59,362 nucleotides of DNA, from the NCBI GenBank assembly GCA_903933715.1, contig CAIZLD010000061.1, forward strand, positions 1 to 59,362, given 5' to 3'. The first letter of the stretch is position 1; each line of letters starts with the position of its first letter. Position numbers and translations under genes: made by a program. Below are positions 46,226 through 50,431 of this stretch, one piece after another. The notes under the pieces are model-generated. The model saw only the letters and a program-made list of their open reading frames with translations. It made no database searches and was not told where the DNA came from. The DNA is from an uncultured Spartobacteria bacterium (GTDB taxonomy: Bacteria; Verrucomicrobiota; Verrucomicrobiia; Chthoniobacterales; Chthoniobacteraceae).

Positions 46226-46837
46226 TTAAAAAAGCCGGTGCAGCCAATCGAACCCGGCTTTGCCCAGCAATAGCCATGCTCCGAAGTAAATCCAGCCGGC
46301 GATTCCAAAAAAATAGCCGGCCAGAATCAGCGCACCGTCGCTTTCCATCAATCCGGCGGTCAAAAGCAGGATGGAGAGGCTCGGCAGCGTGTTCATCACC
46401 GGGACCATGATCGGCAGAAAGAGAAATATTCCCCCGGAGGCAATTGCCGCGCCAATGAGGGAGGTCATTGCGGGGCCGCGCTGCATGAATACGAACCGGG
46501 GCTTGGCCAGACGCTCCATCCGCTGCACCACTTTGATCAACGCGCCGAGAATTTTACGCAGCGTTTCGGGCGAAAGCTCCCGGCGCAAAACAAACGCAGG
46601 CAGCCACGGTTTGCGGCCGCAGGCCAACTGCCCGCCCATCAAGATCAGCGCCGCACCAAATGGAGTGGAGAGCCCCGGGACGCTCGGAATCACAAACGGG
46701 GCGGCCAGGAGCATCATTAAAAGCGCGAACCCACGTTCCGCAAGCCGGGTCTCGATCTCACCAATGCTCAGGGAACGGTTCTCGGTTTGGGCCTGGAGAC
46801 GTTGGAGCTCTTCGGAAAGGCGGGACGGTTCGGTCAT
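46226..46837 (-). CDS. ExoD-family exopolysaccharide synthesis protein
   Basis: 203 residues, four or five hydrophobic segments, with the ExoD block PFVIPSVPGLSTPFGAALIL and LPIMVPVMNTLPSLSILLLT. The family is linked to exopolysaccharide production, though the biochemical role is unknown. Start at 46837 (MTEPSRLS) is preferred over 46903 because the family begins there. The ORF is 188 bases upstream of the dGTPase gene on the same strand. Confidence 0.85.
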   Translation of the reverse strand: MTEPSRLSEELQRLQAQTENRSLSIGEIETRLAERGFALLMMLLAAPFVIPSVPGLSTPFGAALILMGGQLACGRKPWLPAFVLRRELSPETLRKILGALIKVVQRMERLAKPRFVFMQRGPAMTSLIGAAIASGGIFLFLPIMVPVMNTLPSLSILLLTAGLMESDGALILAGYFFGIAGWIYFGAWLLLGKAGFDWLHRLF

Positions 46838-47230
46838 GGATCTTAATGAGGATTGCGGGGCAGTCAAAACGGAGATCGCCCCGGAATCAAGCCCTGAGGC
46901 CATGAATAACCCGTGAAAAAAGTCGGGAACGCAGGGCTTCAGCCAGCGTTTTTCTTTTTACAAGAGAAGCCCGGCTGAAGCCGGCTGGGGCATCGGGGTG
47001 AATCCCAACCACCGGCTGAAGCCGGTGGCAAAGCGGATTTGCCGGCTAAAGACCGGCATGAGAAAACTTTTTCATAGGCTTTGAGCCAAACGCCCATGCA
47101 CCCCCGGAAAAAACTGTCCCAGTAGCCAACGGGCAGACCGCCGATGACAAACGCTCATGCACCCCCGGAAAAAACAAACTTCAATTTTCGTTAGCCAAGC
47201 GGCTGCCGGTTCCCTATGTTAATAAATCCT
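46838..47230. other. Repeat-rich intergenic region before the GreA-type gene
   Basis: 393 bases without a gene. It contains multiple GCCGGY-type palindromes, such as ccaccggc-tgaa-gccggtgg (47009-47028), and a 27-base direct repeat pair (below). Promoter elements for the downstream gene were not identified with confidence. Confidence 0.7.
47088..47175. repeat. 27-base direct repeat pair
   Basis: aaacgcccatgcacccccgg (then aaaaaac) at 47088-47114 and aaacgctcatgcacccccgg (then aaaaaac) at 47149-47175, one mismatch, spaced 34 bases. Located 55 bases before the GreA-type gene start. Confidence 0.85.
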
Positions 47231-49069
47231 ATGCAAGCCGAGATAGAAAAAGCCGTTCAAGCGGGCAAAATCACCCCTCACGTCGCCTCCAACCTCGAAA
47301 AGCTCCCCACGGGCGCTTACTGTTTGCACAAAAGCTGGGGATTCGGACGGATTGCCGAGGTCAATTTTCTCCTCAATCAAGCGACCATCGATTTTAAAGC
47401 CAAGAAGGGCCACACCATGCAGCTGCAATATGCGGCTGAATCGCTGACCCCTTTGCCCGATAATCATATTCTCGTCCGCAAAGTCACCGAAGCCGACGTG
47501 ATCAAAATGCTGGCCAAGGAAGACGCTCTCGCGCTTGTCCGCGCCATTTTGAGCAACTACGGCGGCAAAGCGACGCAGGATCAAATTGCCCAGGCGCTTT
47601 CGGGCGAAATTTTCAATGAGGCGGAATTCAAACGCTGGTGGGACAGCACCAAAAAGCTCCTTAAAAAGGACGGCCTGATCGCTCTCCCGACCAAAAAATC
47701 GGACCCGATCGTTCTGCGCGAAAAATCGATCTCCCATACCGACGAACTTCTTGCCGCGTTTACCTCAGCCCGCCAGACCAAGGCGCAAATCGCCGCGCTC
47801 GACCAGATTCTCAAAAATGCCGATGAATTCAAAGGTCACGGGCAGCTCCCGGCCATCATTGCCGCTGTGGAGGACGCCGCTCAAAAAAGCCGCCGCCTGA
47901 ACACAGCGCAGGCGCTGGAGCTGATCCTTGTCCGGGACGAATTATGCGACATCACAGGCATTGCCCGTGGCGAAGGGGCGATCACGCTGGGCGATATTCT
48001 CCGCGAAGAGGAACGCCGTTTGCACGAAATTCTAAACGACGTACCCGCCGCCAAACAACGGCGCGTTCTGGCCGCTTTCGCCGGAGCGTTTGACGAAGAA
48101 AAATGGGTGGAAAAAATCCTGTCTCTTATGAGCAAGGGGAGCATCCGCATCGTCACCGAGATCGGGCGGGTTCTCGTGGAGATGGGCAAGAAAGAGGAAC
48201 TCCACCGGGAACTCGACCGGTGGCTGGGAGATCACACCATCTCCGCCGAAGTCCTTACCTGGCTTTGCAAGGAACGCGGCGGCCCGTTCGCCGCGATGGT
48301 CGATGCCCGGGTGTTGAGCGCCATTCTTTCCGCACTGGAGCGCGATCAGTTCAACGAGATCAAGCGCGGCAGCAAGCTCCATGATCTCATTCTCGAAGAT
48401 CGGGAATTGATTCCGGACATGCTCGCCGGGTCCGAGCCGGAAACCGTGCGCGACACCATCCGCAAGGTGATGCTCTCGGGCGTGTTCGAGGAACTCAATA
48501 AACGCTCCATCCTGGGCCGGATCATCCGCATTTATCCTGAAATGGAATCGATGCTGACCGGCGACACCCCGTCCGAAAAACAGGAAGCGTTGATCGTTTC
48601 CTGGGAAAGCCTTGAAAAGCGCAAAGCTGAACTGGACGATCTGGTGAAGCGGAAAATCCCGGAGAACATCAAAGAAATCTCGATCGCCCGTTCCTACGGC
48701 GATTTGCGCGAGAACTTTGAGTTCAAGGCCGCCAAGGAAATGCAACGTGTTCTATCCCGCCGCCGGGCGGAAACCGAGCGCGATCTCGGGCTCGCACGCG
48801 GAACCGATTTCGCCAATCCCGATACTTCCGTCGTTTCCATTGGAACGACCGTGACGCTGAAGGAGACCGGCGACGGACGCACGGACATCTACACCATCCT
48901 GGGGGCATGGGATAGCGACCCGAAAGCGGGCATCATCTCCTACAAAGCCGGAATATCGCAGGCGCTGCTGGGTCACAAGGTGGGCGAGAAACTCGATCTC
49001 CCGACCGAACACGGCGACCGCATCGCGGAAATCGTCAGCATTGAACCGTGGCGTAAACCGGCGCAATAG
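47231..49069 (+). CDS. Large protein with C-terminal GreA/GreB transcript-cleavage domain
   Basis: 612 residues. The last 165 residues are a GreA-type domain: a coiled coil with the tip motif ISIARSYGDLRENFEFKAAK, where D491 and E494 match the catalytic acids of GreA, followed by the FKBP-like half (SVVSIGTTVTLKETGDGRTD, GHKVGEKLDL). The preceding 440 residues have no recognised domain; they are helical, with a KOW/Tudor-like start (PTGAYCLHKSWGFGRIAEVN) and HEAT-like helices. Ordinary GreA is about 158 residues. It likely acts on paused RNA polymerase; the function of the N-terminal part is unknown. Start at 47231 is chosen; 47216 is possible. Confidence 0.87.
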   Translation: MQAEIEKAVQAGKITPHVASNLEKLPTGAYCLHKSWGFGRIAEVNFLLNQATIDFKAKKGHTMQLQYAAESLTPLPDNHILVRKVTEADVIKMLAKEDALALVRAILSNYGGKATQDQIAQALSGEIFNEAEFKRWWDSTKKLLKKDGLIALPTKKSDPIVLREKSISHTDELLAAFTSARQTKAQIAALDQILKNADEFKGHGQLPAIIAAVEDAAQKSRRLNTAQALELILVRDELCDITGIARGEGAITLGDILREEERRLHEILNDVPAAKQRRVLAAFAGAFDEEKWVEKILSLMSKGSIRIVTEIGRVLVEMGKKEELHRELDRWLGDHTISAEVLTWLCKERGGPFAAMVDARVLSAILSALERDQFNEIKRGSKLHDLILEDRELIPDMLAGSEPETVRDTIRKVMLSGVFEELNKRSILGRIIRIYPEMESMLTGDTPSEKQEALIVSWESLEKRKAELDDLVKRKIPENIKEISIARSYGDLRENFEFKAAKEMQRVLSRRRAETERDLGLARGTDFANPDTSVVSIGTTVTLKETGDGRTDIYTILGAWDSDPKAGIISYKAGISQALLGHKVGEKLDLPTEHGDRIAEIVSIEPWRKPAQ

Positions 49070-49088: not shown

Positions 49089-49550
49089 TTAAATTTGCAT
49101 TTCCAATGCGCAGAGGCGCTCCAGGAGTTCCTGGGGCGTTGAAGCGCCGAGCAGGGCGGCTTCCCCTTTTTCGGTTCGAAAAATGCGCGCCAGCGCCCCG
49201 ATGATCCGCAAATAGTCCGAGGCGAGCGCCAGCGGCACACCGATCACAACAATCAAATGGATGCGCACGCCGGACTCTTCAAAGAGGATGCCGCCGGGCG
49301 ACTGCGCAACGGCCATGACCATTTCATGCACTGCCTTGGAGCGGACGTGGGCGATGCAGATGCCGGCCCCAAAGTCGTTGGTGATGCATGCCGCGCCCGC
49401 CATGATCCCGTTGTAGAATTGATCCCAATCGGTCAACCGCTCGTCCCGTTCCAGCAGGTCGGCGACTTTGGAAAGGGCGCGGGCGCGCGTCTCGGCCTTC
49501 AAACCGACGAGGATGTGTTTGGGGCTGAGAATGTCGGCGATGGTGATCAT
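49089..49550 (-). CDS. PTS EIIA-type (PtsN-like) phosphocarrier protein
   Basis: 153 residues. Structure of a fructose/nitrogen PTS EIIA domain: MITIADILSP, LTDWDQFYNGIMAGAA and the phosphorylatable H68 in GAGICIAHVRSKAVHEMVM. Such proteins take phosphate from HPr or NPr and regulate metabolism. It overlaps the NAD kinase stop by ATGA at 49547-49550 and closes the leftward operon. No EI or HPr in the window. Confidence 0.85.
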   Translation of the reverse strand: MITIADILSPKHILVGLKAETRARALSKVADLLERDERLTDWDQFYNGIMAGAACITNDFGAGICIAHVRSKAVHEMVMAVAQSPGGILFEESGVRIHLIVVIGVPLALASDYLRIIGALARIFRTEKGEAALLGASTPQELLERLCALEMQI

Positions 49551-50431
49551 ACGGCGCTGCCGCTCCATTTGAGCTTCTCGCGCAAAACTTCACAAAACGA
49601 AAATTCAGGCACCATGGCCAGCGAAAGTTCCATGGAGCTTTTTCGGATTTGGACCACATCCCCATCGCGCACTTTCATAGGCCCATGTCCATCAACGGTG
49701 AGGATCACATCGCTCTGGCCCGCCACGGGGCTTACGGTGATTGTCGATCGATCGGCGATCACGAGACTGCGATTGGCCAAGACGTGCGGGCAGACGGGGG
49801 TCACAACGAGCACCCCGGCATCCGGGGCGATCACGGGACCGCCTGCGGAAAGCGAATATGCGGTGGACCCTGTGGGGGTAGCGACGATCAAGCCGTCTGC
49901 GTTGTATTGCGTCAAGTTCACCCCGTCAACCCAAGTATCGAGCTTGATGAGCCGGGAGAGCGCGCCCCGGCTGATGACCGCCTCGTTGAGCCCGATGCGC
50001 CGGGAAAGCAGCTTGCCTTCGCGTTCGAGCGTCACGACCAAAAGCGCCCGCTGGCTCAACCGATATTTTCCCGAGCAGACGGCGTCCACGGCCTGATGGG
50101 CATGACTGGAGCTCACGCACGTCAGGAACCCGAGCGAGCCCAGGTTGATCCCAAAGACCGGGCAGAGATTTTCGCCCATCTCGTGAACGACTCTCAAAAT
50201 CGTGCCGTCTCCGCCCAATACCAGCAGCATCGTGCATTTCTCCCCCAGTTCGGCCACGGAAACCCCGCCCGGTTCACCGATGAGAGCGGCGCTCTCGGTT
50301 TCGAGGAGGACGGTCTTGCCGCAGGCGCGCAACTCGCCCGTCAATAAACGAAGCAAATCGGCGGCATTGGGTTTTTGGGCGTGGGCGACGAGACCCACCG
50401 GCCCGGTTGCACCTTGATTTGGAGGAGGCAT
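49547..50431 (-). CDS. nadK: NAD kinase
   Basis: 294 residues. Motifs LVLGGDGTILRVV (ATP/NAD binding), NADGLIVATPTGSTAYSLSA and GHGPMKVRDGDVV are diagnostic. It phosphorylates NAD to NADP. Start: ATG at 50431 is chosen; a TTG at 50449 would overlap the tlyA stop by four bases, the pattern seen elsewhere in the operon, and cannot be excluded. Confidence 0.94.
   Translation of the reverse strand: MPPPNQGATGPVGLVAHAQKPNAADLLRLLTGELRACGKTVLLETESAALIGEPGGVSVAELGEKCTMLLVLGGDGTILRVVHEMGENLCPVFGINLGSLGFLTCVSSSHAHQAVDAVCSGKYRLSQRALLVVTLEREGKLLSRRIGLNEAVISRGALSRLIKLDTWVDGVNLTQYNADGLIVATPTGSTAYSLSAGGPVIAPDAGVLVVTPVCPHVLANRSLVIADRSTITVSPVAGQSDVILTVDGHGPMKVRDGDVVQIRKSSMELSLAMVPEFSFCEVLREKLKWSGSAV

Follow-up and report, generated by a model that had tools for sequence, protein, structure and literature searches.

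A long GreA-type protein of Verrucomicrobiota with conserved catalytic residues and a predicted Tudor-like barrel in its front part

Why would a transcript cleavage factor of the GreA type stand at the end of a protein of 612 residues, and what might the long front part do? This question is raised by a gene of an uncultured Spartobacteria bacterium, located in a 59,362-nucleotide stretch of contig CAIZLD010000061.1 (the window). An earlier note, based on the letters alone, had described a GreA-type factor with a kept catalytic tip behind some 440 helical residues of unknown nature and had suggested that this part might tether the factor to the polymerase, the ribosome or another machine, which would make the whole a new type of transcription factor. 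The open frame extends from an ATG at 47231 to a stop codon ending at 49069. An alternative ATG upstream at 47216 would give a product of 617 aa; since the alignment of same-genus homologues begins at the 47231 Met and one homologue (L007) lacks any start codon further upstream, 47231 is the likelier start.

The C-terminal end of the protein (residues ca. 452–606) is a complete GreA module with a coiled coil, a tip and a C-terminal domain. Both Gre domains scored well over their Pfam cut-offs: GreA_GreB_N (PF03449) at residues 456–522 with 58.4 bits against 24.5 (E = 8e-16) and GreA_GreB (PF01272) at residues 532–605 with 68.9 bits against 26.9 (E = 3.7e-19). The NCBI greA model TIGR01462 matched residues 458–605 with an E value of 1.4e-34, whereas the greB model reached only 2e-15; judged by these profiles, the module is GreA-like rather than GreB-like. 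The Gre coiled coil, whose absence from a predicted structure had been named beforehand as fatal to the GreA assignment, is present in the model as helices 458–488 and 496–521 with the tip at 489–495. The modelled module matched Escherichia coli GreA (1grj) with a Z score of 15.7 (2.7 Å over 150 residues), within a range of 15.7 to 16.9 for GreA. The FKBP-like C-terminal domain by itself matched that of Gfh1 (2eul) with a Z score of 13.0 (1.3 Å over 75 residues). The coiled coil, the acidic tip and the C-terminal domain are thus shared with E. coli GreA, and in the alignment with 1grj, D491 and E494 correspond to the tip residues D41 and E44. Both the identification of a GreA-type factor on this long protein and the retention of its catalytic tip were therefore borne out.

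Oversized GreA proteins were found to be already on record. Two NCBI models cover them: NF011309 (PRK14720, “transcription elongation factor GreA”, 906 positions), which we take to be the spirochaete type, and NF004969 (PRK06330, “transcript cleavage factor/unknown domain fusion protein”, 718 positions), presumably the Chlamydia type. Residues 26–606 of the host's protein aligned to positions 307–902 of the former and residues 22–604 to positions 134–715 of the latter, these types having about 300 and about 130 more residues in front, respectively. The N-terminal 450 residues alone matched both models (NF011309: E = 5e-32, NF004969: E = 8e-28), and the front part is therefore homologous too. 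The scores of the long GreA did not reach the curated cut-offs (NF011309: 245 against 714 bits, NF004969: 192 against 697 bits), indicating a homologue and not the same equivalog.

Each of the 28 close relatives has the long GreA, with 40%–83% identity over nearly the full length, as do 189 of the 194 genomes across Verrucomicrobiota. A search with GreA_GreB_N only also hit 189 of these 194, with a single match in nearly every genome; nearly all of the matches listed sit in frames of > 600 residues, and a second or short copy occurred in few genomes. Nearly every named public relative bears the label Verrucomicrobiota, and Chthoniobacterales/Spartobacteria come closest. The host genome contains exactly one GreA_GreB_N domain, and the family search found no second complete GreA in it. 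The earlier question of whether a normal greA exists elsewhere in this genome is thus answered in the negative, with a small chance of a missed copy at the estimated completeness of 97%. With no GreA of normal, short size found there and a long form nearly always the only one per genome, the long form is the usual GreA of Verrucomicrobiota.

The idea of a new type of transcription factor is consequently not supported in that form, because models of oversized GreA with the same front region have already been curated, a Chlamydia protein of this kind has been described in print and the long form is standard in the phylum. A 2024 review gives 715 residues for Chlamydia trachomatis GreA against 158 in E. 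coli (PMC10995303). Within the literature searched, the coverage of which was incomplete, neither a domain description of the front part nor a link between GreA and Tudor domains was found, and a single table entry was all that mentioned long GreA loci by name. The long GreA itself is thus known, but little studied; what appears new against this literature is the domain reading of its front part.

The AlphaFold2 model built with 57 sequences had a mean pLDDT of 93.5 and a pTM of 0.66, and residues 1–168 modelled alone had a pLDDT of 93.8. The predicted domains are listed in Table 1. E. coli GreA, with its 158 residues, has no Tudor domain, winged helix or solenoid, unlike the long GreA as modelled. 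The earlier description of the front part as helical applies to most of its length, whereas the first ca. 165 residues are predicted to form a beta barrel and a winged helix. The pTM together with the low-confidence linker between solenoid and Gre module suggests that module and front part have no fixed arrangement to each other.

Table 1. Position and basis of the features assigned to the long GreA gene and its product.
Feature	Residues	Position in window	Strand	Basis
Long GreA-type protein	612 aa	47231..49069 (stop included)	+	ORF, Pfam, NCBI models
Two short helices before barrel	~3-23	47237..47299	+	model
Tudor-like barrel, UvrD/PcrA-CarD type, H33xxW36GxG39	~25-75	47303..47455	+	Pfam, model, Foldseek, VIA-align
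Winged-helix domain (fold only)	~86-165	47486..47725	+	model, VIA-align
Alpha-helical HEAT-like solenoid	~168-445	47732..48565	+	model
Low-confidence linker, pLDDT < 50	447-450	48569..48580	+	model
GreA_GreB_N coiled coil, tip D491/E494 in GDLREN	456-522	48596..48796	+	Pfam, 1grj alignment, model
GreA_GreB C-terminal domain	532-605	48824..49045	+	Pfam, structure match

The five-strand barrel of the front part is of the Tudor type according to the model, Foldseek and VIA-align. The best Foldseek matches of residues 1–168 were the C-terminal Tudor domains of UvrD/PcrA (7egt_B, 9dqs, 5dma and 7egs), that of 7egt_B with a probability of 1.00 and 1.6 Å, and CarD/CdnL were also among the matches; this Tudor likeness is modest, with a Foldseek E value of 0.014 at best and Z scores below 8. 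In VIA-align, Thermus UvrD (7egt_B) gave a Z score of 6.7 (1.3 Å over 47 residues) and CarD (4kbm) a Z score of 5.9 (2.1 Å over 52 residues). The predicted barrel fold is thus shared both with the UvrD/PcrA Tudor domain (5dma, 7egs and 7egt) and with the CarD/CdnL/Mfd interaction domain (PF02559), and the former also shares an HxxWGxG motif with the long GreA. H33, W36, G37, G39 and F55 were invariant in the 57 sequences; phylum-wide, the position of W36 was Trp in 20 of 23 sequences and that of H33 was His in 15 of 23, with Asp or Asn in the other eight. The motif coincides with H681-x-x-W684-G-x-G of PcrA (5dma sequence), so that H33 and W36 correspond to H681 and W684. Alanine mutants of this PcrA domain (H681A, W684A, K712A and L714A) bind RNA polymerase poorly (PMC5397179). 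In a by-eye alignment, K712 and L714 fall on the variable positions 62 and 64, so that these two residues have no clear counterpart and are not evidently kept in the long GreA. The UvrD/PcrA domain differs in its location at the helicase C-terminus.

Profile comparisons pointed in the same direction. Against the profile of the long GreA, the PcrA Tudor reached 11.9 bits, whereas the best of 2000 shuffled versions of it reached 7.1, and the long GreA of one relative passed the Pfam gathering cut-off of CarD_TRCF_RID (PF02559; 23.6 against 23 bits). Recurrent weak Pfam matches in the 57 homologues included PcrA_UvrD_tudor, CarD_TRCF_RID and DUF3553, the last of which we take, from motif resemblance, to be the same Tudor type. 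The window protein passed neither of the Pfam Tudor cut-offs (PF21196 and PF02559), and Mfd interaction domains from the same order matched weakly in a profile–profile comparison (probability 19%–33%). Each of these sequence tests is weak, but together they are consistent with the Tudor assignment. The Pfam model PcrA_UvrD_tudor matched 8 of 14 control genomes but none of the 23 genomes searched from the order; therefore, the Tudor domain of UvrD may be absent, altered or no longer recognisable in this order.

A possible partner site was found in RNA polymerase. In RpoB, the site bound by the PcrA Tudor is a beta-hairpin that carries the motif [VIL]DxxTGE[VIL][VILT] (PMC8318588). The host RpoB reads ADVRDGEI at residues ca. 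249–256 of its open frame (locus L170), and 11 of 13 genomes of relatives share the pattern DxxDGE[ILV]. Compared with the PcrA-bound motif, Asp replaces Thr and the first position mostly differs. The site is no more than a suggestive candidate dock for the Tudor-like domain.

Taken together, we consider it probable, with considerable reserve, that the host's only complete GreA is a cleavage-competent factor that its Tudor-like domain holds on the beta subunit of the polymerase. The Gre module would enter the secondary channel of a backtracked RNA polymerase, where the acidic tip D491/E494 would stimulate cleavage of the RNA 3′ end. The Tudor-like domain would dock on an exposed site of the beta subunit, either as in UvrD/PcrA (hairpin, beta lobe insertion) or as in CarD/Mfd (beta1), while the winged helix and the solenoid would bridge the dock and the secondary channel, contacting DNA or protein. 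The long GreA would then stay on the elongation complex, at hand when the polymerase backtracks. UvrD, Mfd, CarD and RapA reach the polymerase via a Tudor domain; if the docked reading is true, Gre factors would join these Tudor-mediated polymerase binders. A wider version, rather doubtful at present, is that a docked factor has replaced the free cleavage factor in Verrucomicrobiota and, by homology, in further lineages that have an oversized GreA, such as Chlamydia. This version would include a UvrD-type Tudor dock, a winged helix touching DNA, backtrack rescue fixed in the elongation complex and a docked long GreA that rivals UvrD/Mfd docking or takes its place.

The partners of Tudor barrels are diverse, and the front part could instead link an unchanged GreA activity to a partner other than the polymerase, such as the ribosome, a repair factor (UvrB), DNA or RNA, with the Tudor-like domain and the winged helix serving as generic adaptors. 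We regard this as unlikely but as the alternative that must be taken most seriously. The closest Tudor structure, 7egt_B, is bound to UvrB and not to polymerase. Winged helices often bind DNA, and the matches here include DNA-binding domains and the linker histone domain (VIA-align Z score of 7.4). The winged-helix fold also occurs in the RNA polymerase delta subunit (N-terminal domain, 2krc; HARE-HTH), which matched with a Z score of 6.7 (3.0 Å over 78 residues), and other winged helices score alike. An assignment to HARE-HTH was rejected as a fold likeness only, since Pfam PF05066 had no match in the window gene and none recognisable in the long GreA frames of 79 genomes. The solenoid resembles importins, ribosome-biogenesis HEAT proteins and transport proteins, some of which would suit a ribosomal partner; however, Z scores of 7–9 are background for such folds, and no function was therefore drawn from it. 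In contrast, RNA polymerase is a partner of several Tudor domains (UvrD, PcrA, CarD and CdnL) among the solved structures closest to this one. Because of this and because the cargo is itself a polymerase factor, docking on polymerase is the simpler reading. Of the three targets named in the tether proposal, RNA polymerase is thus the best supported, through the UvrD/PcrA/CarD-type fold from which we infer the binding.

The docked reading further requires that the Gre module still cleaves. It could alternatively have become a structural or anti-cleavage secondary-channel factor similar to Gfh1, or taken another role; on grounds of size, C. trachomatis GreA with its 715 aa has been suggested to be possibly not functionally comparable to E. 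coli GreA (PMC10995303). However, the module matched GreA more strongly than Gfh1. Moreover, D491 and E494 were invariant in the 23 phylum-wide and 57 class-level sequences, as was most of the GDLREN tip in all 23, and the search of the genome turned up no other complete GreA to provide the cleavage activity. A loss of cleavage is accordingly improbable. The retained cleavage residues and the lack of another GreA in most genomes of the phylum bear directly on the doubt about functional comparability. As the function of the oversized Chlamydia GreA has been left open in print, the domain reading offers a concrete test by point mutants. A chance open frame or a gene pair mis-joined in assembly can be dismissed almost entirely, because, against a single in-frame TAA in the copy of one relative (G008:C61:4584-6410), the full-length frame is kept in 28 of 28 relatives, across the phylum and in named public genomes, that is, in independent assemblies, and both NCBI models align across the junction of the front part and the Gre module. 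The TAA-containing copy of G008 is a pseudogene or reflects a sequencing error.

The long greA lies alone on the + strand amid genes on the − strand, its neighbours being ExoD (46226–46903, −) and a lone PTS EIIA-2 domain protein (49089–49568, −). Eight neighbouring genes were checked in 80 named relatives and were absent beside the long greA, except for exoD in two, and synteny therefore gave no functional clue. A promoter scan remained at chance level, an Rfam search of the window detected no RNA family, no relatives of the long GreA were found in viral contigs, and a PHROGs search gave nothing significant. Two further matches were set aside as chance, namely a TilS-like match at residues 268–305 (E = 0.0034, in 1 of 57 members) and a ribosomal S7 match to the N-terminal profile (E = 0.45).

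A second host protein (L002:1498-2037, −; contig G000:C31 near 54148) contains a partial GreA_GreB C-terminal domain (27.2 bits against the cut-off of 26.9), preceded by a helical part reading SKAENKYDTRG. It is encoded between leuA-like and uvrB-like genes on contig 31 and is a Gre-like paralogue without the GDLREN tip. The class of the host has a shorter form of the long GreA than other Verrucomicrobiota classes, in which the N-terminus is longer by ca. 100 or more residues (e.g., L052 in G163, L045 in G201 and L054 in G108), giving open frames of 700–780 aa, similar in length to the Chlamydia protein. Six metagenome-assembled public records (L063, L064, L098, L101, L123 and L127) are labelled Akkermansia muciniphila, Proteobacteria or Klebsiella pneumoniae and contain a long GreA close to that of other Verrucomicrobiota; these labels are probably wrong.
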